41,725 nt of DNA from contig JAPLFJ010000023.1 of the NCBI GenBank assembly GCA_026390735.1, forward strand, positions 1-41,725, given 5' to 3'. Made by a program: the position numbers and the translations under genes. Numbering within the stretch: position 1 is the first letter of the stretch; every line of letters starts with the position of its first letter. The stretch is from Ignavibacteriota bacterium (lineage in GTDB: Bacteria > Bacteroidota > Ignavibacteria > Tepidaquicellales > Tepidaquicellaceae). Below, in pieces: positions 7,177 through 41,725 of the stretch. The notes below the pieces were generated by a model, which ran no database searches, was not told where the DNA came from, and saw nothing but the letters and a program-made list of their open reading frames with translations.

Positions 7177-7938
7177 TCAATCTTCTGTTTTCAGGGTAAT
7201 ACCATTCCATTTCTTTTTCTTATCCTCATCGGGCATATAGTCGAAAAGTTCCTCGAAGAAAGTATCAGACCATTCGTATTTATTCTTTAAATCATTAAAC
7301 TTTATGGCGGCAACCATAACGTATGCCTTTTCGGCTAAGTATTTTTCCTGACGGATTATATGATCCGGACGAAATTTAACGGGGATAAAACCATCGGGAG
7401 ATTCGTTTTCAATTGTCTGGAATGTAGTATCGGCTGTAATGGTTTTTTCTCTTACCCGACCCTCGTGGGAATAAGCGAATAATCTGTCGAGAATAAAGAC
7501 ACAGAATAATACATAAGGCGGTTCGAGATGTTTAGGGTTGGCACGTTCAAGTTTAAACTCAAAAGAAATATCCATTTCATCCATTGTAATATTCCTCACG
7601 AGCATTTTATCGTCACAATTTGGCGTGAATCCAGATCCGGGGAGAATACGTTCATATTCAACGAAAGGCTGATTCCTTATCATAAGTCTGGTGTTATTAT
7701 TCAGACCATCGGCATCAATTGCTCTCCAGAAAGCCTGAATCTTTTTGTCTTTACGCAACTTTGAATTAAGTCTTTGTCTTCGGGAGAATATTTTGCGTGT
7801 AAGCTTCACTTTATCGCTCTTAGTTTTGTATCTAAGGGGTTTAGCAGAGACATAAACCTTGCCATATCTCAGACGGGAAACTATAGTCCCGATTTTCCCT
7901 CTAAGGAATCCAAAAACACCGCTATCAAATTGTGCCAT
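7177..7938 (-). CDS. DUF6266-like protein
   Basis: 253 residues. The N-terminus (FDSGVFGFLRGKIGTIVSRL, then GKVYVSAKP) resembles the opening of DUF6266 proteins, which are common in Bacteroidota as small families of unknown role. Residues 40-75 are highly basic, rich in Lys and Arg. The rest looks like mixed beta strands with no motif I know. The 5' leader holds a 10-bp perfect hairpin (7963-7986) and a promoter at 7996-8026. Assignment rests on N-terminal resemblance only. Confidence 0.5.
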   Translation of the reverse strand: MAQFDSGVFGFLRGKIGTIVSRLRYGKVYVSAKPLRYKTKSDKVKLTRKIFSRRQRLNSKLRKDKKIQAFWRAIDADGLNNNTRLMIRNQPFVEYERILPGSGFTPNCDDKMLVRNITMDEMDISFEFKLERANPKHLEPPYVLFCVFILDRLFAYSHEGRVREKTITADTTFQTIENESPDGFIPVKFRPDHIIRQEKYLAEKAYVMVAAIKFNDLKNKYEWSDTFFEELFDYMPDEDKKKKWNGITLKTED

Positions 7939-8032: not shown

Positions 8033-8063
8033 TTGACAAAAGAAAGATAATATATTATATTTG
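8033..8063 (+). promoter_or_regulatory. Strong promoter with no protein gene close downstream
   Basis: TTGACA (8033-8038), a spacer of exactly 17 bp, and TATATTTG (8056-8063), matching both the sigma-70 -35 and the Bacteroidota TAnnTTTG -7 element. No convincing coding sequence follows until 8948. The promoter at 22590 has the same build. Confidence 0.75.
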
Positions 8064-8167
8064 TATACTCAATAAATCAGGGGAACATAATCAAATGTTA
8101 GCAGTATAAACTGCAACAACCTCTGAAAAGACCGAAAAACAACCTTTCAAAAAAAGAATCAAGAAAA

Positions 8168-8206
8168 TGGCGTAGATGTGGCGTACTGCTGGCGTGAATC
8201 TGGCGT
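8168..8206 (+). repeat. Four TGGCGT units at exact 11-nt period
   Basis: TGGCGT occurs at 8168, 8179, 8190 and 8201, always followed by five unrelated bases. The period is exactly 11 nt, about one turn of B-DNA, so a protein reading TGGCGT would meet all four copies on one face. It begins about 100 nt downstream of the inferred transcription start. Confidence 0.85.
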
Positions 8207-8371
8207 ATTTCTCTCGAGATTATCTCCTTAATAGGTCGAGAGAACGTCGATACTCATCCCTTAAAAGGGATACGCTTTTCCTCCATATACATTCAAATCT
8301 TATGATAAAACATTACTATTGTAATACATAATAGTAGTATAGTGACTATATTACTGAGGACAGCCAGTACA

Positions 8372-37474: not shown

Positions 37475-39145
37475 ATGGCAGATAATAAGATTATATTTTC
37501 AATGGTGGGAGTTACGAAAACATTCCCCCCTCACAAGACAGTTCTGAAGAACATATACCTGTCGTTTTTCTACGGCGCAAAGATTGGCGTTATAGGTCTG
37601 AACGGTTCAGGTAAATCAACACTGCTGAAAATCATAGCAGGGCTTGAAACATCGTTCGACGGCGAAGTACACTTCACAAAGGAATACTCAGTAGGGTTTC
37701 TTTCACAGGAACCTGAACTGGACGACAAGAAGACTGTGAAAGAAACAGTTATGGAAGGCGTACAGGAAATAGTTGACATTTTAAAGGAATACGAAGAAGT
37801 GAATAACAAGTTTGCCGAACCGATGACGGATGACGAAATGACGAAGCTCATAGAGCGTCAGGGAGAACTTACAGAACTTATCGACCATAAAGGCGGATGG
37901 GAAATTGACGCAAAGTTATCGCGTGCTATGGATGCCCTGCGCTGTCCTGATGATGACGAATTAATCGAAACACTAAGCGGAGGCGAAAGAAGACGTGTTG
38001 CGTTGTGCAGACTTCTTCTGATGGAACCGGATATATTATTACTTGACGAACCTACAAACCATCTTGATGCAGAATCAGTAGAATGGCTTGAACTTCATTT
38101 ACAGCAGTACAAAGGAACAGTCATAGCCGTAACTCACGACAGGTATTTTCTGGATAACGTTGCGGGCTGGATACTAGAACTCGACCGCGGAGAAGGCATT
38201 CCATGGGAAGGAAACTATTCGTCGTGGCTTGACCAGAAATCGAAGCGACTTGCGATGGAAGAAAAAACAGAAAGCAAACGCCGCAAGACACTCGAACGCG
38301 AACTTGAATGGGTGAGAATGTCTGCAAAGGCACGTCACGCAAAATCGAAGGCAAGACTTCAGGCATACGACAAACTTCTGAACGAAGACACAAAACAGAA
38401 AGAAGACAAACTTGAAATATACATTCCAAACGGACCGCGTCTGGGCAATAAAGTAATTGACGCAATAAAAGTGAAGAAATCATTCGGAGATAAAATGCTG
38501 TTCGAAAACCTGAACTTCTCACTTCCCCCTGCGGGAATCGTTGGAGTTATCGGACCGAACGGTGCTGGTAAAACTACTTTATTCAGAATGATACTTGGGA
38601 CTGAGAAACCAGACGACGGAAGTTTCGACGTCGGTGAAACAGTAACGATTGGATACGTTGACCAGAGCCACATAGAACTCAATCCCGAAGATACAGTCTG
38701 GAAGGCAATTTCCGAAGGTGCAGAATCGATTGAACTAAGTGGCAAACAGTACAACTCGCGTGCTTATGTAGGAAGGTTTAACTTCAACGGAGCCGACCAG
38801 GAAAAGCTCGTAAAGAATCTATCGGGCGGAGAAAGAAACAGGCTTCATTTAGCATTAACATTAAAAACACAGGCAAACGTATTACTGCTTGACGAACCCA
38901 CTAACGACATAGACGTAAACACGCTGCGTGCACTGGAAGAAGGACTCGAAGACTTTGCAGGATGTGCGGTAATCATATCACACGACAGATGGTTTTTAGA
39001 CAGAATTGCAACTCACATACTCGCATTCGAAGGAGACTCGGAAGTTTGCTTCTTTGAAGGCGGATATTCTGAATACGAAGAAAACAAGAAGAAGAGGCTT
39101 GGAGATGCAACACCTAAGAAATTCAAATACAAGAAACTATTCTGA
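37475..39145 (+). CDS. ettA: Energy-dependent translational throttle protein
   Basis: 556 residues, exactly in the range of EttA. Two ABC-F ATPase domains: Walker A GLNGSGKST (41-49) and GPNGAGKTT (360-368); LSGGE signatures at 167-171 and in LSGGERNRLHLAL; Walker B DEPTNHLD (191-198) and DEPTNDID. The arm insert between 95 and 140 and the basic linker (260-300) are present. The C-terminus KKRLGD-x-x-PKKFKYKKLF fits EttA. It binds the ribosomal E site and couples elongation to ATP/ADP ratio. Confidence 0.93.
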   Translation: MADNKIIFSMVGVTKTFPPHKTVLKNIYLSFFYGAKIGVIGLNGSGKSTLLKIIAGLETSFDGEVHFTKEYSVGFLSQEPELDDKKTVKETVMEGVQEIVDILKEYEEVNNKFAEPMTDDEMTKLIERQGELTELIDHKGGWEIDAKLSRAMDALRCPDDDELIETLSGGERRRVALCRLLLMEPDILLLDEPTNHLDAESVEWLELHLQQYKGTVIAVTHDRYFLDNVAGWILELDRGEGIPWEGNYSSWLDQKSKRLAMEEKTESKRRKTLERELEWVRMSAKARHAKSKARLQAYDKLLNEDTKQKEDKLEIYIPNGPRLGNKVIDAIKVKKSFGDKMLFENLNFSLPPAGIVGVIGPNGAGKTTLFRMILGTEKPDDGSFDVGETVTIGYVDQSHIELNPEDTVWKAISEGAESIELSGKQYNSRAYVGRFNFNGADQEKLVKNLSGGERNRLHLALTLKTQANVLLLDEPTNDIDVNTLRALEEGLEDFAGCAVIISHDRWFLDRIATHILAFEGDSEVCFFEGGYSEYEENKKKRLGDATPKKFKYKKLF

Positions 39146-39839
39146 TAGTTTCATAAAGAAAGTTTTCGAAAGCATCGTTGACTTTGCATACCCAAAGATA
39201 TGCTTAGTCAGCGATTGCCGTATAAGTCCGGGCAACTCAAACGACTTCGTATCGGACGCCGTACTCGCAAAACTTGAACTGATAAAAGAAGAAGAGTTTT
39301 CATTCATACGCACGAAGATAAACGCAGACTTCTTTTATTCGCGATACGCATTCCGCCACGACAACGAAATACAGACACTCGTCCATTATTTAAAATACAA
39401 GAAGTTCACAAAGATAGGACACTTCCTCGGCACCATAACAGGCGAACAATTAGCAAACAAGTTTACCGACAAACTCAAAGAATATAAATACCTGTTACCC
39501 GTTCCCCTATTCGGCGGCAAGCTCAGGGAACGCGGCTACAATCAGAGTCTTTACATTTGCAACGGCATAGCTGAAGTCACGGGACTTGAAATCATAAACG
39601 AGACTATGATACGCGTGAAGAACACAAAGTCACAGACGGGATTATCGTATCAGGAAAGAATCACAAACGTACAGGACGCATTCGAACTCAACAGCAAATC
39701 GGGCAGAACTATTGACGGAGGAATCCTCGTAGTGGATGATGTGCTGACCACGGGCTCTACAGTAAAGGAAGTAATAAGGCTGCTGAAGCAATCGACGAGT
39801 GTGAGTGTTGGGGCGGTGACGGTGGGGCTTGCTCGTTAG
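39105..39839 (+). CDS. comF: ComF family phosphoribosyltransferase-like protein
   Basis: The best start is ATG 39105 (244 residues), overlapping ettA by 41 bp; the longer frame from 39006 would lie inside ettA and gives no family sequence. The core is typical: YLLPVPLFGGKLRERGYNQS, TKSQTGLSYQERITNVQDAF and the PRPP loop GILVVDDVLTTGST. The N-terminal zinc ribbon usually has four Cys; here only KICLVSDCRI remains. ComF proteins take part in DNA uptake; other competence genes are not in the window. Confidence 0.88.
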   Translation: MQHLRNSNTRNYSDSFIKKVFESIVDFAYPKICLVSDCRISPGNSNDFVSDAVLAKLELIKEEEFSFIRTKINADFFYSRYAFRHDNEIQTLVHYLKYKKFTKIGHFLGTITGEQLANKFTDKLKEYKYLLPVPLFGGKLRERGYNQSLYICNGIAEVTGLEIINETMIRVKNTKSQTGLSYQERITNVQDAFELNSKSGRTIDGGILVVDDVLTTGSTVKEVIRLLKQSTSVSVGAVTVGLAR

Positions 39840-39927
39840 TTAGTTGTTCGTTGTCTGTTGATAGTTGTTGATTTATCTCAATACTTGAATTATTAATTAA
39901 ATGGTATGTCTTTACCTTGTTTTATAA

Positions 39928-40028
39928 GGACTGCTTAGGGAGTACTTACTGAGATATAAGGGAGATAAATGGAGTACCAGGGGACGATAAGTGGACTTTC
40001 AGGGGACTGTGAGTGGAGAATAATGGGT
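39928..40028 (+). repeat. Ten degenerate GGA(G/C) units at 11-nt period
   Basis: GGAC/GGAG begins at 39928, 39939, (TGAG 39950), 39961, 39971, 39982, 39993, 40004, 40015 and, in weaker form, 40026. Every step is 11 nt except one of 10 (39961 to 39971). Best units: GGACTGCTTAG, GGAGTACTTAC, GGAGTACCAGG, GGACTTTCAGG, GGACTGTGAGT. The period is not a multiple of three, so this is not a coding repeat. Confidence 0.85.
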
Positions 40029-40124
40029 TTTGTTGTATTATCAGTGATTTATTTCGTTAAATTGAAGAATAATACAATTTTTAACGAATAATACTGATTA
40101 AATCAGAGTATTCTGATGATAATT

Positions 40125-40153
40125 AATATACTAAAATCGGATTTGATTGTCAA
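40125..40153 (-). promoter_or_regulatory. Leftward promoter pointing into the 11-nt array
   Basis: On the minus strand: TTGACA (plus 40148-40153), 17-bp spacer, TATATT (plus 40125-40130). Transcription would start near 40117 and run left through two hairpins, then the array, toward the 3' end of comF. No protein gene lies on that strand. Confidence 0.6.
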
Positions 40154-40245
40154 GTCATTTTTACGGTACCTGTATGTGTATTTTTACTTTGTCATTGCCT
40201 AAAAGTGCTTGTTTTTATTAAGTGAAGTGAATAAATTATTAATAA

Positions 40246-40269
40246 ATGAAGTATATAATTCAAATAGCG
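40246..40269 (+). repeat. 24-bp direct repeat, copy 1
   Basis: Begins ATGAAGTATATAATTCAAAT and is identical over 24 bp to 40632-40655. Read as codons it gives MKYIIQIA then a stop, i.e. the start of the secreted protein at 40632 without the rest. Confidence 0.9.
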
Positions 40270-40292
40270 TGAAGGACAAAAGATTACATATT

Positions 40293-40628
40293 ATGAAAGG
40301 TAAGACTATCCAGGTATATATTATATTTCTTACAATACTCGATATGTTCTCTATCGTTTCTATTCTTGAATTTCAAAATAAATTGAGGTGGCTAAATCTC
40401 GATTTACCTAAAATATTTTATTTCTATGTTTGTTTTCTATTGATACCACTATATTTTATTAATATGTTTGTTTTTATGTTTTGTTACTTTTCGAAATCCA
40501 AGATGAATATGACCTTTACTATATTGTACTTTGTAAATACTCTAATATTGTCTTTGCTGGCTTTTTATTCTGCTATTTTTCTATATGAAATAACAGACGG
40601 TAATTTATTAACTTTGATTTTTCGATAA
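40293..40628 (+). CDS. Small membrane protein of unknown function (1)
   Basis: From the ATG at 40293 it has 111 residues; a longer TTG-started frame from 40209 is less likely because its extra 28 residues overlap the duplicated 24-bp repeat. About three membrane helices: VYIIFLTILDMFSIVSIL, FYFYVCFLLIPLYFINMFVF and FTILYFVNTLILSLLAFYSA, with a Lys-rich turn FSKSKMNM. A similar layout is seen in the product of 41151-41471. It lies between the two copies of the 24-bp repeat. AT-rich; no family known. Confidence 0.5.
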   Translation: MKGKTIQVYIIFLTILDMFSIVSILEFQNKLRWLNLDLPKIFYFYVCFLLIPLYFINMFVFMFCYFSKSKMNMTFTILYFVNTLILSLLAFYSAIFLYEITDGNLLTLIFR

Positions 40629-40631
40629 GAT

Positions 40632-40655
40632 ATGAAGTATATAATTCAAATAGCG
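40632..40655 (+). repeat. 24-bp direct repeat, copy 2
   Basis: Identical to 40246-40269; it forms the first eight codons of the secreted-protein gene. The copies are 386 bp apart (start to start). Confidence 0.9.
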
Positions 40656-41084
40656 GTGGTGGTGATGGTGATGTGCGGGAGTGTGTACGGGCAGGAGAAG
40701 ATAAATAGGGATATATTTAATTTTAAAGATTTTGGGTTTATTTATGATGATAGTACGTATTGTGCTTTTGATGGTGGAATTGGATATTTTAAAGTGATTC
40801 TTTTCATGACCGAATATAATAAAGACAAACATACTTTGAATATCTCAGGAAAGGTCTGTGACAGAAAAAGTTATGAGGCTTTTTGTGAAATTTATGCGTA
40901 TATAGGAAGTTTTGATACTGTTAAATGCAGGTTAACAATTAAAAATCGGTTTTCAATTGATTGTACCGGATATTTCAATACAATCTTAGATATATCAGCT
41001 GATGAAAAACTGTATTTCGATTGTTTAGGCTATTCTTTGATAGAATGTAGTATTGATAAACAAAAACTGAAAAAATATCTTTGA
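40632..41084 (+). CDS. Small secreted protein of unknown function
   Basis: 150 residues. A signal peptide (MKYIIQIAVVVMVMCGSVYG) with cleavage near residue 20. The mature part has eight Cys and beta-type strands (YFKVILFMTEYNKDKH, TLNISGKVC, YLIECSIDKQKL-like end), suggesting a disulfide-stabilised periplasmic or secreted domain. It has no T9SS sorting domain. The first 24 bp of the gene are the second copy of a direct repeat found at 40246. Not recognised. Confidence 0.55.
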   Translation: MKYIIQIAVVVMVMCGSVYGQEKINRDIFNFKDFGFIYDDSTYCAFDGGIGYFKVILFMTEYNKDKHTLNISGKVCDRKSYEAFCEIYAYIGSFDTVKCRLTIKNRFSIDCTGYFNTILDISADEKLYFDCLGYSLIECSIDKQKLKKYL

Positions 41085-41137
41085 TGAGTTCCCAAGGTGG
41101 ACGTTTAAGAGCGAACGCTTCGCGTTTGTTGAATGAG

Positions 41138-41145
41138 GGGGAGGA
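41138..41145 (+). promoter_or_regulatory. Shine-Dalgarno that fixes the start at 41151
   Basis: GGGGAGGA, 5 bp before ATG 41151. An earlier ATG at 41133 would make this purine run coding (MRGRKI), which is unlikely. Confidence 0.65.
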
Positions 41146-41150
41146 AGATA

Positions 41151-41471
41151 ATGGGAAATAAGTTATTTTTGACTGTGTTTTCGGTAATAAATACTATTGC
41201 AATTATTGGATATTTGGAATTGAATGGAGTTATTAAAATTACATCAAATATAAATATAGTATTTGGTTACATTGGTCTCTTTATTGTAATATTTTATCTA
41301 TTGATTGCATTGGTTTATTTATCATTTCTCGGTATGATGTTCGCTTATGACAGGAATAAGATTAAGAATGAGAGTTTGTATTTTAAATTGGTTTTAACAA
41401 TTAGTTTGATATTGACGGTTATTAATTCTGTAATGTCTGTGATTTTCTTTTTGAAGAATGGTGATTCATAG
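41151..41471 (+). CDS. Small membrane protein of unknown function (2)
   Basis: 106 residues from the ATG at 41151. About three hydrophobic helices: LFLTVFSVINTIAIIGYL, INIVFGYIGLFIVIFYLLIA and LVLTISLILTVINSVMSVIF, joined by a charged turn FAYDRNKIKNES. The layout and helix spacing match those of the product of 40293-40628, so the two may be distant paralogues flanking the secreted protein. No known motif. Confidence 0.5.
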   Translation: MGNKLFLTVFSVINTIAIIGYLELNGVIKITSNINIVFGYIGLFIVIFYLLIALVYLSFLGMMFAYDRNKIKNESLYFKLVLTISLILTVINSVMSVIFFLKNGDS

Positions 41472-41485
41472 GAGTTATTTATTTG

Positions 41486-41531
41486 TTTCAAATCCCGATA
41501 AATCGGGATGCACAGAACGCGCTGTTTGAAA
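41486..41531. repeat. Palindromic element with three-way-junction fold
   Basis: Outer stem TTTCAAA (41486-41492) with TTTGAAA (41525-41531). Inside it are a perfect 8-bp hairpin ATCCCGAT-AA-ATCGGGAT (41492-41509) and a 4-bp hairpin ACAG-AACGCG-CTGT (41512-41525). This looks like a small dispersed structured repeat. It lies just after the last gene and could also act as a transcript end. Confidence 0.65.
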
Positions 41532-41556
41532 TACAATTTAACAGACTAAAATCGCG

Positions 41557-41622
41557 ACCCACCCCGTCTCCGTCTAAAGAACAGACGGATCCACCCCTCC
41601 AAGGAGTAATGGCACTAACATA
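41557..41622 (-). repeat. Palindromic intergenic repeat, copy 3, fused to a possible IS end
   Basis: Inverted relative to copies 1 and 2. Read on the plus strand: ACCCACCCCGTC, a variable hairpin TCCGTCT (41569-41575) with AGACGGA (41583-41589), CCACCCCTCC, then GGAGTAATGGCACTAACATA (41603-41622). The last part is the inverted partner of 122-141. Confidence 0.65.
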
Positions 41623-41670
41623 GTAAATTAATAGAATAATGGTTATATTAGAGTAATTAAATTAAACAAG

Positions 41671-41725
41671 ATGACTCCAAATGTATCCTTGCAAAAAAGT
41701 ACACAAATAAGGGACCTAATGCGTA
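41671..41725 (+). CDS. Possible 5' end of a mobile-element gene (partial, runs off the right edge)
   Basis: An ATG frame, MTPNVSLQKSTQIRDLMR, remains open to the window edge. It starts about 50 bp inside the inferred IS terminus (41603-41622) and points away from it, as the start of a transposase would. Only 18 codons are visible and they cannot be assigned. Confidence 0.3.
   Translation, partial: MTPNVSLQKSTQIRDLMR

Follow-up and report, generated by a model that had tools for sequence, protein, structure and literature searches.

Periodic 11-nucleotide arrays with locus-specific cores lie beside DUF6266-like genes in an Ignavibacteriota genome

Introduction

REPs are palindromes that are dispersed together with RAYTs, which are transposase-like proteins. 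The arrays that we describe here resemble them as dispersed intergenic repeats with gene-linked copies, but neither palindromes nor transposase-like proteins were seen in our case. In type III toxin–antitoxin systems (ToxIN and its kin), a protein is paired with a multi-repeat RNA that it recognizes specifically, with a repeat of around 36 nt that contains a pseudoknot (PMC8860590). ParR–parC systems have short direct repeats near the gene for the binding protein; these are 10 or 11 bp long in some plasmids and family-specific (PMC9426499). The FopS/RbpB system of Bacteroides, also in Bacteroidota, involves paralogous small RNAs that have their own promoters and a common sequence motif (PMC11697453). 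Finally, the TAACTGA repeats of Beggiatoaceae, Cyanobacteria and some Bacteroidetes are short intergenic direct repeats of unknown function, with a 7-nt unit and a single core, and no pattern in the downstream genes is reported for them (PMC4679880).

The window analysed here, a stretch of 41,725 nucleotides, contains an array that differs from each of these. Its unit is 11 nt and, across related loci, the RNA predicted from such an array can run divergently from the gene or have no adjoining gene at all (orphan). No ToxN-like endoribonuclease was found for the linked protein family in Pfam (E up to 1) or PADLOC with 20 members, or in NCBIfam with 7. Unit length and, judged by sequence, the protein family thus place the arrays outside type III toxin–antitoxin systems. 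As in ParMRC, the repeats adjoin a gene for a possible binder, here a DUF6266-like protein that is a candidate only; unlike parC, they lie on chromosomal contigs, number dozens per genome and come with a foldable leader, and no ribbon–helix–helix (ParR) family was among the Pfam matches at E up to 1 (20 members). In contrast to FopS, the core varies between loci, and the arrays are associated with a protein family. DUF6266 is mentioned in none of the open-licence PMC papers searched, and among the papers listed there no account of its association with arrays was found. The arrays beside the family genes, each with its own motif, point to an undescribed protein-and-address-tag system.

An 11-nucleotide array between genes

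The 11-nt array at 39928–40018, to which a sequence-only reading of the window had drawn attention, is real. Its GGA[G/C] units were read directly at window positions 39928, 39939, 39961, 39971, 39982, 39993, 40004 and 40015; position 39950 holds a variant unit, TGAG, and the would-be tenth unit at 40026 reads GGTT, so the ten units first claimed reduce to eight strict ones and one variant. The claimed period held up, with all steps being 11 nt except for the one from 39961 to 39971, which is 10 nt. The 22-nt higher order is also present, GGGGAC and AGTGGA alternating along the array, and TRF reports period 22 at 39960–40007 and period 11 at 39978–40008. The region had been called gene-free. 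A coding repeat is rejected because 11 is not divisible by 3 and the ORF list of the window has no ORF of at least 100 aa over the array. A comF-like gene (with a phosphoribosyltransferase match) lies on one side and small ORFs lie on the other.

Shuffling, which had been proposed as a check on chance, gave a divided answer. The motif chain passed clearly: across 300 first-order Markov shuffles of the window, scored on both strands, no chain of six GGA[GC] at steps of 10 or 11 nt arose and the longest had 3, and when any 3-mer with a two-base fourth position was allowed, the longest chain in 20 shuffles was 4, short of the 6 in the array. Plain self-identity at lag 11 was only borderline, because the array scores 26/44 and 22 of 200 simulated windows match that value somewhere; when 29/44 is required, the array is detected at lag 22 (30/44) and missed at lag 11. 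Independent support comes from its retention in a second species. Absence from every relative had been named as a result that would count against the array, whereas the same-genus genome G004 has a copy of the element that is 86% identical, in the same gene neighbourhood (an ABC-type ATPase, the comF-like gene and a secreted-type ORF).

Two other features were seen near by. The ORF at 40632 opens with 24 bases that also occur at 40246, as if a gene start had been duplicated, and window positions 39836–39880 carry tandem repeats at lags 7, 14 and 21, distinct from the 11-nt arrays.

A predicted RNA gene around the array

Judged from the surrounding sequence, the array is probably the 3′ part of a small RNA on the minus strand, with the following predicted parts:

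40125–40153, minus strand: sigma70-type promoter, TTGACA-17-TATATT, about 136 nt ahead of block 1
40019–40119, minus strand: structured leader, with a hairpin at about 40117–40102, a long hairpin at about 40098–40040 and then a linker
39966–40018, minus strand: array block 1, five 11-nt units with RNA core TCC (GGA at 39971, 39982, 39993, 40004 and 40015)
39928–39965, minus strand: array block 2, four 11-nt units at 39928, 39939, 39950 (variant) and 39961

The leader alone folds at z −4.66 relative to shuffles, and the whole transcript folds at z −2.52 on the minus strand compared with −0.54 on the plus strand. The single 10-nt step is the boundary between the five-unit and the four-unit block. 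By eye, C50, C68, C55, 4C121 and 4C136 likewise have a second block with a core of its own, and in 4C136, C55, C50 and C68 roughly five units with one core come before three or four with a different one. The second core of C50 recurs after the orphan array on C10 (L193).

Searching with the array and its right flank revealed further copies in this genome (G000). With ten loci anchored, a −35-like box lies 175–178 nt ahead of the equivalent array unit in all 7 comparable copies, C28, 4C136 and 4C121 not being comparable because they belong to another class or lack TTGACA. The spacing is kept even in C50, although its leader sequence otherwise differs; C29 and C50 have less canonical −35 boxes (TTGCTT and TTGATT). 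A covariance model of six copies, searched against 59 genomes, gave 9 matches at E ≤ 1 in G000 and 5 in G004, and these 14 include the six model sequences, with the weakest, C46 (E 0.23), being uncertain by score. Matches in six other genomes had E values of at least 0.066. C68 and 4C121 fit the model yet have no TTGACA box. An ORF lies downstream of the array in five related loci (C56, C29, C55, 4C575 and C46) and is divergent from the array transcript in two (C28 and 4C136). No known Rfam family matched at gathering score in 14 loci searched; within 39000–41725 of the window, the only Rfam match was SNORD27, far under its threshold and away from the array. In other array loci (L104, L108, L097 and L092), a GGAACTTT or similar run stands at the place of TTGACA, which we take to resemble an ECF sigma −35 element.

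A family of DUF6266-like proteins

The sequence-only reading had suggested searching for further arrays, and the search was productive: this genome has dozens, many of them adjoining genes of one protein family. The ORFs at the related loci listed above belong to this family, whose proteins are around 250 aa long and have 40 matches in G000, one of them in the window. There are at least 24 matches in G004, a lower bound because the search scored at most 26 candidates per genome, and 9 further genomes have one to three matches each. Overall, matches were found in 11 of the 99 genomes searched, with none in G001–G003, which are among those 99 and belong to the same genus.

By profile comparison, the family proteins are distant homologues of DUF6266: hhalign against 13 DUF6266 proteins gave a probability of 97.1% and an E value of 5e-11 over 125 columns. 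Single sequences stay below the cut-off of PF19781 (DUF6266), the best in the genome reaching E 0.655 and 10.7 bits against a cut-off of 23.4. Genes matching PF19781 itself occur in 11 of 148 genomes of the phylum. The family proteins are strongly basic at the N terminus, with a mean net charge of +10.5 over the first 75 residues (57 proteins, range +5 to +18), compared with +0.5 for 270 control ORFs (95th percentile +6) and +8.7 for 13 DUF6266 proteins; a crude pattern for a hydrophobic leader matched none of the 57. Pfam (E up to 1) and PADLOC gave nothing above threshold with 20 members, NCBIfam gave nothing over its cut-off with 7, the best PHROGs match had an E value of 0.0044 and the single match among solved structures had an E value of 0.66. 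Viral contigs contained no relative of the family, and a scan of genome contigs found two loci, both in the MAG 'uncultured Ignavibacteriae bacterium LaPlata-15m-a_bin-535'. Plasmids and phages gave no match to one DUF6266 protein, which was used there as the query in place of the Ignavibacteriae proteins. An AlphaFold model of a family protein was poor (mean pLDDT 41.8), too poor for a binding fold to be read from it.

Arrays lie upstream of the family genes

The family gene in the window is accompanied by a second array, with its own predicted promoter and leader, that the sequence-only reading did not include:

7177–7938, minus strand: DUF6266-like gene (253 aa; C51:7210–7938, E 1.7e-64), divergent from the second array RNA
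8033–8061, plus strand: predicted promoter of the second array RNA, TTGACA-17-TATATT
8067–8168, plus strand: predicted leader of the second array RNA, with closing stem UCAGGGG/CCUCUGA and a conserved A-rich linker; z −3.89
8169–8212, plus strand: second array, four 11-nt units with core GGCGT at 8169, 8180, 8191 and 8202

Across the family, scoring the upstream 600 nt for lag-11 identity of at least 28/44 revealed an array at 23 of 37 genes in G000 and 14 of 20 in G004 (drawn from 40 and 24 matches, respectively), compared with 7 of 280 control upstreams, which can themselves include real orphan arrays. Lags 10 and 12 gave 0/37 each in G000, 0/20 and 1/20 in G004, and 1/280 and 0/280 in the controls. 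Among 15 family genes from nine further genomes of the class, 8 have an array, compared with 1 of 53 segments taken from those loci (p 7e-6). Phylum-wide, true DUF6266 genes have one in 6 of 14 cases, compared with 1 of 51 segments elsewhere in the loci (p 2e-4); the 14 come from 16 among the matches listed, leaving out L178, which begins at a contig end, and L190, which is broken. When the best lag was taken instead, it was 11 or 22 in 24 of 30 family upstreams and in 8 of 114 control segments drawn from loci fetched as chance matches. Some DUF6266 loci have notable lag-10 scores (G167b 34, also among the six positives; G202 27; G187 26). Many genes have no array at the 28/44 threshold (14/37 in G000, 7/15 in the other genera and 8/14 for DUF6266), which counts against reading the arrays as addresses of the proteins. 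Upstream of the DUF6266 gene at L188 (G116b), an 11-nt array precedes an inverted copy of itself, and the two would form a long hairpin.

Arrays also occur away from the family. In 400 kb of G000, eight stretches reach lag-11 identity of at least 30/44 and none does so at lags 8, 9, 10, 12 or 13. One of the eight, L206:15613, is probably coding; the other seven sit between other genes. Equal samples, in a comparison that covers G000, G002 and G010 only (the G004 sample, largely masked N, was excluded), gave one stretch in the congener G002 and none in G010, in neither of which the family was found; at a threshold of 28/44 the counts are 9, 3 and 1, respectively. Lags 7, 14 and 21 are frequent in the G000 and G002 samples. 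By eye, three orphans carry the cores of gene-linked arrays: L193 that of C9, L202 that of C58c and L204 that of C59. Another three (L196, L198 and L206) share the core GAGACCAA/GAGACTAA, which was seen by eye in no gene-linked array examined.

Cores vary by locus and are conserved in orthologues

The array had been described by its GGA(G/C) motif, but GGA itself is not the point, because other loci hold the same 11-nt period with quite different cores. Read in gene orientation, these include TCCAC, CACTTCAAA, TGCGGT, CCCCAT, TGCATT, TCTCGT, GCGATAT, GCTAACTATAT and TACGCTTCAGA. The period is constant, and the unit sequence varies from locus to locus and is common to most orthologues. Arrays resemble each other above background only when their proteins are more than about 50% identical (16 pairs: 9 at 50–60%, 2 at 60–70% and 5 above), and fairly close proteins can have different cores, as in C29b/C65 (61% identical) and C16c/4C332b (70%).

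Within arrays, the core appears to be held more firmly than the remainder of the unit. In nine pairs taken as orthologues, from which C16c/4C332b was left out, 13 of 222 core-phase positions differ, compared with 51 of 266 others (p 1e-5), an excess that can be partly ascertainment because the cores were picked from one of the two arrays. In two orphan pairs, the flagged array included, TCC positions changed in 0 of 30 cases and the others in 15 of 79 (p 0.01), the core having been set as TCC after C56 and C29.

RNA or DNA

The sequence-only reading offered helical phasing or a repeated RNA module. The array proves to be one of a large class with a period of 10–11 nt, and of the two readings the RNA module, on the minus strand, is favoured by the placement of promoters and the folding of leaders. 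A promoter scoring at least 17.5, a level near the 95th percentile for random 270-nt control sequences, points into the array at a distance of 105–156 nt, limits that were taken from the data themselves, in 13 of the 45 arrays scanned. It runs in the same direction as the gene in seven (C56, C29, C55, C65, C59, 4C343 and 4C575) and points away from it in six (C28, C42b, C51, C55b, 4C225 and 4C136). The other 32 of the 45 have no strong promoter at that distance, which counts against the RNA reading; promoters of at least 17.5 lie at other distances in seven loci (C9, C58c, 4C225, 4C674, 4C293, 4C332b and C32b). Nineteen leaders, selected for a clear promoter, fold at a mean z of −2.43 (sem 0.41) in sense and −1.45 (sem 0.25) in antisense. 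That the antisense strands are also below zero again counts against an RNA, and six of the 19 are no better than z −1.1 (C28, C42b, C55b, 4C225, C59 and L204). In the divergent class, the closing stem is fixed in place and its bases vary (UCAGAGG/CCUCUGA, UUAGGGA/UCCCUGA and UCAGGGG/CCUCUGA), in a comparison that is a hand alignment only and that C55b and 4C225 fit less well. A Rho utilisation site, with C-rich units 11 nt apart, was considered because the window RNA is C-rich and G-poor; it is rejected as a general explanation, because no more than 29 of 45 arrays have more C than G and because some arrays are G-rich on the transcribed strand (GGCGT).

The arrays themselves have no strand-specific folding (z −0.28 versus −0.34, 37 arrays), and a period of 10–11 nt, as also found at DUF6266 loci, is about one turn of B-DNA, which keeps a DNA reading in contention. 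The arrays could be helically phased DNA operators or centromere-like sites, with the DUF6266-like protein binding one helix face as ParR binds parC, and with transcription incidental. Direct repeats with locus-specific cores fit such an arrangement, and ParR of R1 binds 11-bp repeats and that of pB171 10-bp repeats, in family-specific pairs (PMC9426499). Counting against helical phasing are the strong promoters that read into the array whether facing the gene or away, the leaders that fold, and the promoter spacing that stays constant even where the leader has diverged (C50). We regard the DNA reading as unlikely, though a serious contender.

A model of array RNAs as protein addresses

We put it at about an even chance that the flagged array is the tail of a structured RNA whose repeated core is the address of a cognate DUF6266-like protein. 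Our observations comprise the array, its conservation and its paralogues, a promoter-like site and a foldable leader whose spacing is constant, and the association of 10–11-nt arrays with a gene family in which cores are locus-specific; from these we infer RNA production, protein binding and an effect of binding. A sigma70-type promoter of its own would drive transcription of the small RNA on the minus strand, and the RNA would belong to a dispersed family of array RNAs paired with paralogous basic proteins of the DUF6266 superfamily, each RNA having a folded 5′ leader and then blocks of around four to five 11-nt units. The repeated core would be recognized by one cognate protein, with one protein per 11-nt turn, such that the array may serve as a multivalent platform that regulates, stores or positions it. 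Orphan arrays, including the flagged one, would be extra platforms without an adjoining gene that extend the network.

A broader claim, which we offer tentatively and hold to be somewhat less probable, is that the DUF6266 superfamily comprises phylum-wide, sequence-specific nucleic-acid binders of fast-diversifying specificity, each with a multivalent 10–11-nt RNA (or DNA) address beside its gene, and that same-core orphans form an addressable network. If true, the protein–array pairs would amount to a ready-made recognition code. DUF6266, a domain of unknown function in several Bacteroidota families, gains a testable genomic partner in the gene-specific periodic array. If the protein reads its array, one genome would offer dozens of natural protein–address pairs from which to work out the recognition code and the role of the system, and a class of intergenic repeats missed by gene annotation would be explained.

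Alternatives to an address

The arrays could instead be selfish or neutral 11-nt minisatellites or mobile repeats, spread with, and perhaps by, the protein family and having no regulatory function. Dispersed orphans, many gene copies and a patchy distribution would fit, as would the abundance of heptad-type repeats (lags 7, 14 and 21). We nevertheless consider this improbable, given the unchanged TCC positions (0/30 versus 15/79), the phylum-wide period of 10–11 nt, the conservation of leader and promoter along with the array, and the scarcity of 11-nt arrays in the two family-free samples, though other tandem lags are present there.

Slightly less credible again is a base-pairing small RNA, with the core as a multi-copy seed against mRNAs and the protein as a chaperone or mere neighbour, in the manner of FopS/RbpB. 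Such an RNA would have the promoter-like site, foldable 5′ part and repeated tail seen here, and paralogous multicopy small RNAs have been described in Bacteroides (PMC11697453). But complementarity between the array and its own mRNA start had a mean rank of 0.409 (chance 0.5, sem 0.059, 24 loci), which is not significant, complementarity with the whole gene had a mean rank of 0.525, and the cores differ among most loci.

A CsrA/RsmA sponge acting through the GGA motifs on the plus strand is rejected: CsrA was not found in this genome, which is 97% complete, a match being present in 5 of 59 relatives; other loci have the period but not GGA; and the RNA is predicted from the minus strand.

Repeats at the contig end

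The last 135 bases of the window (41591–41725) recur without a difference, and in the same orientation, in a stretch at the end of contig C45 (L125), where a DUF6266-like family gene lies close to the identical stretch; the identity is probably a repeat at a contig break. By eye, a dispersed element that contains CACCCCGTC and CCTTGGAGGGG, or the complements of these, is present at around 41550–41615 of the window and in the upstream regions of L125 and L126, and it recurs ahead of a few family genes.
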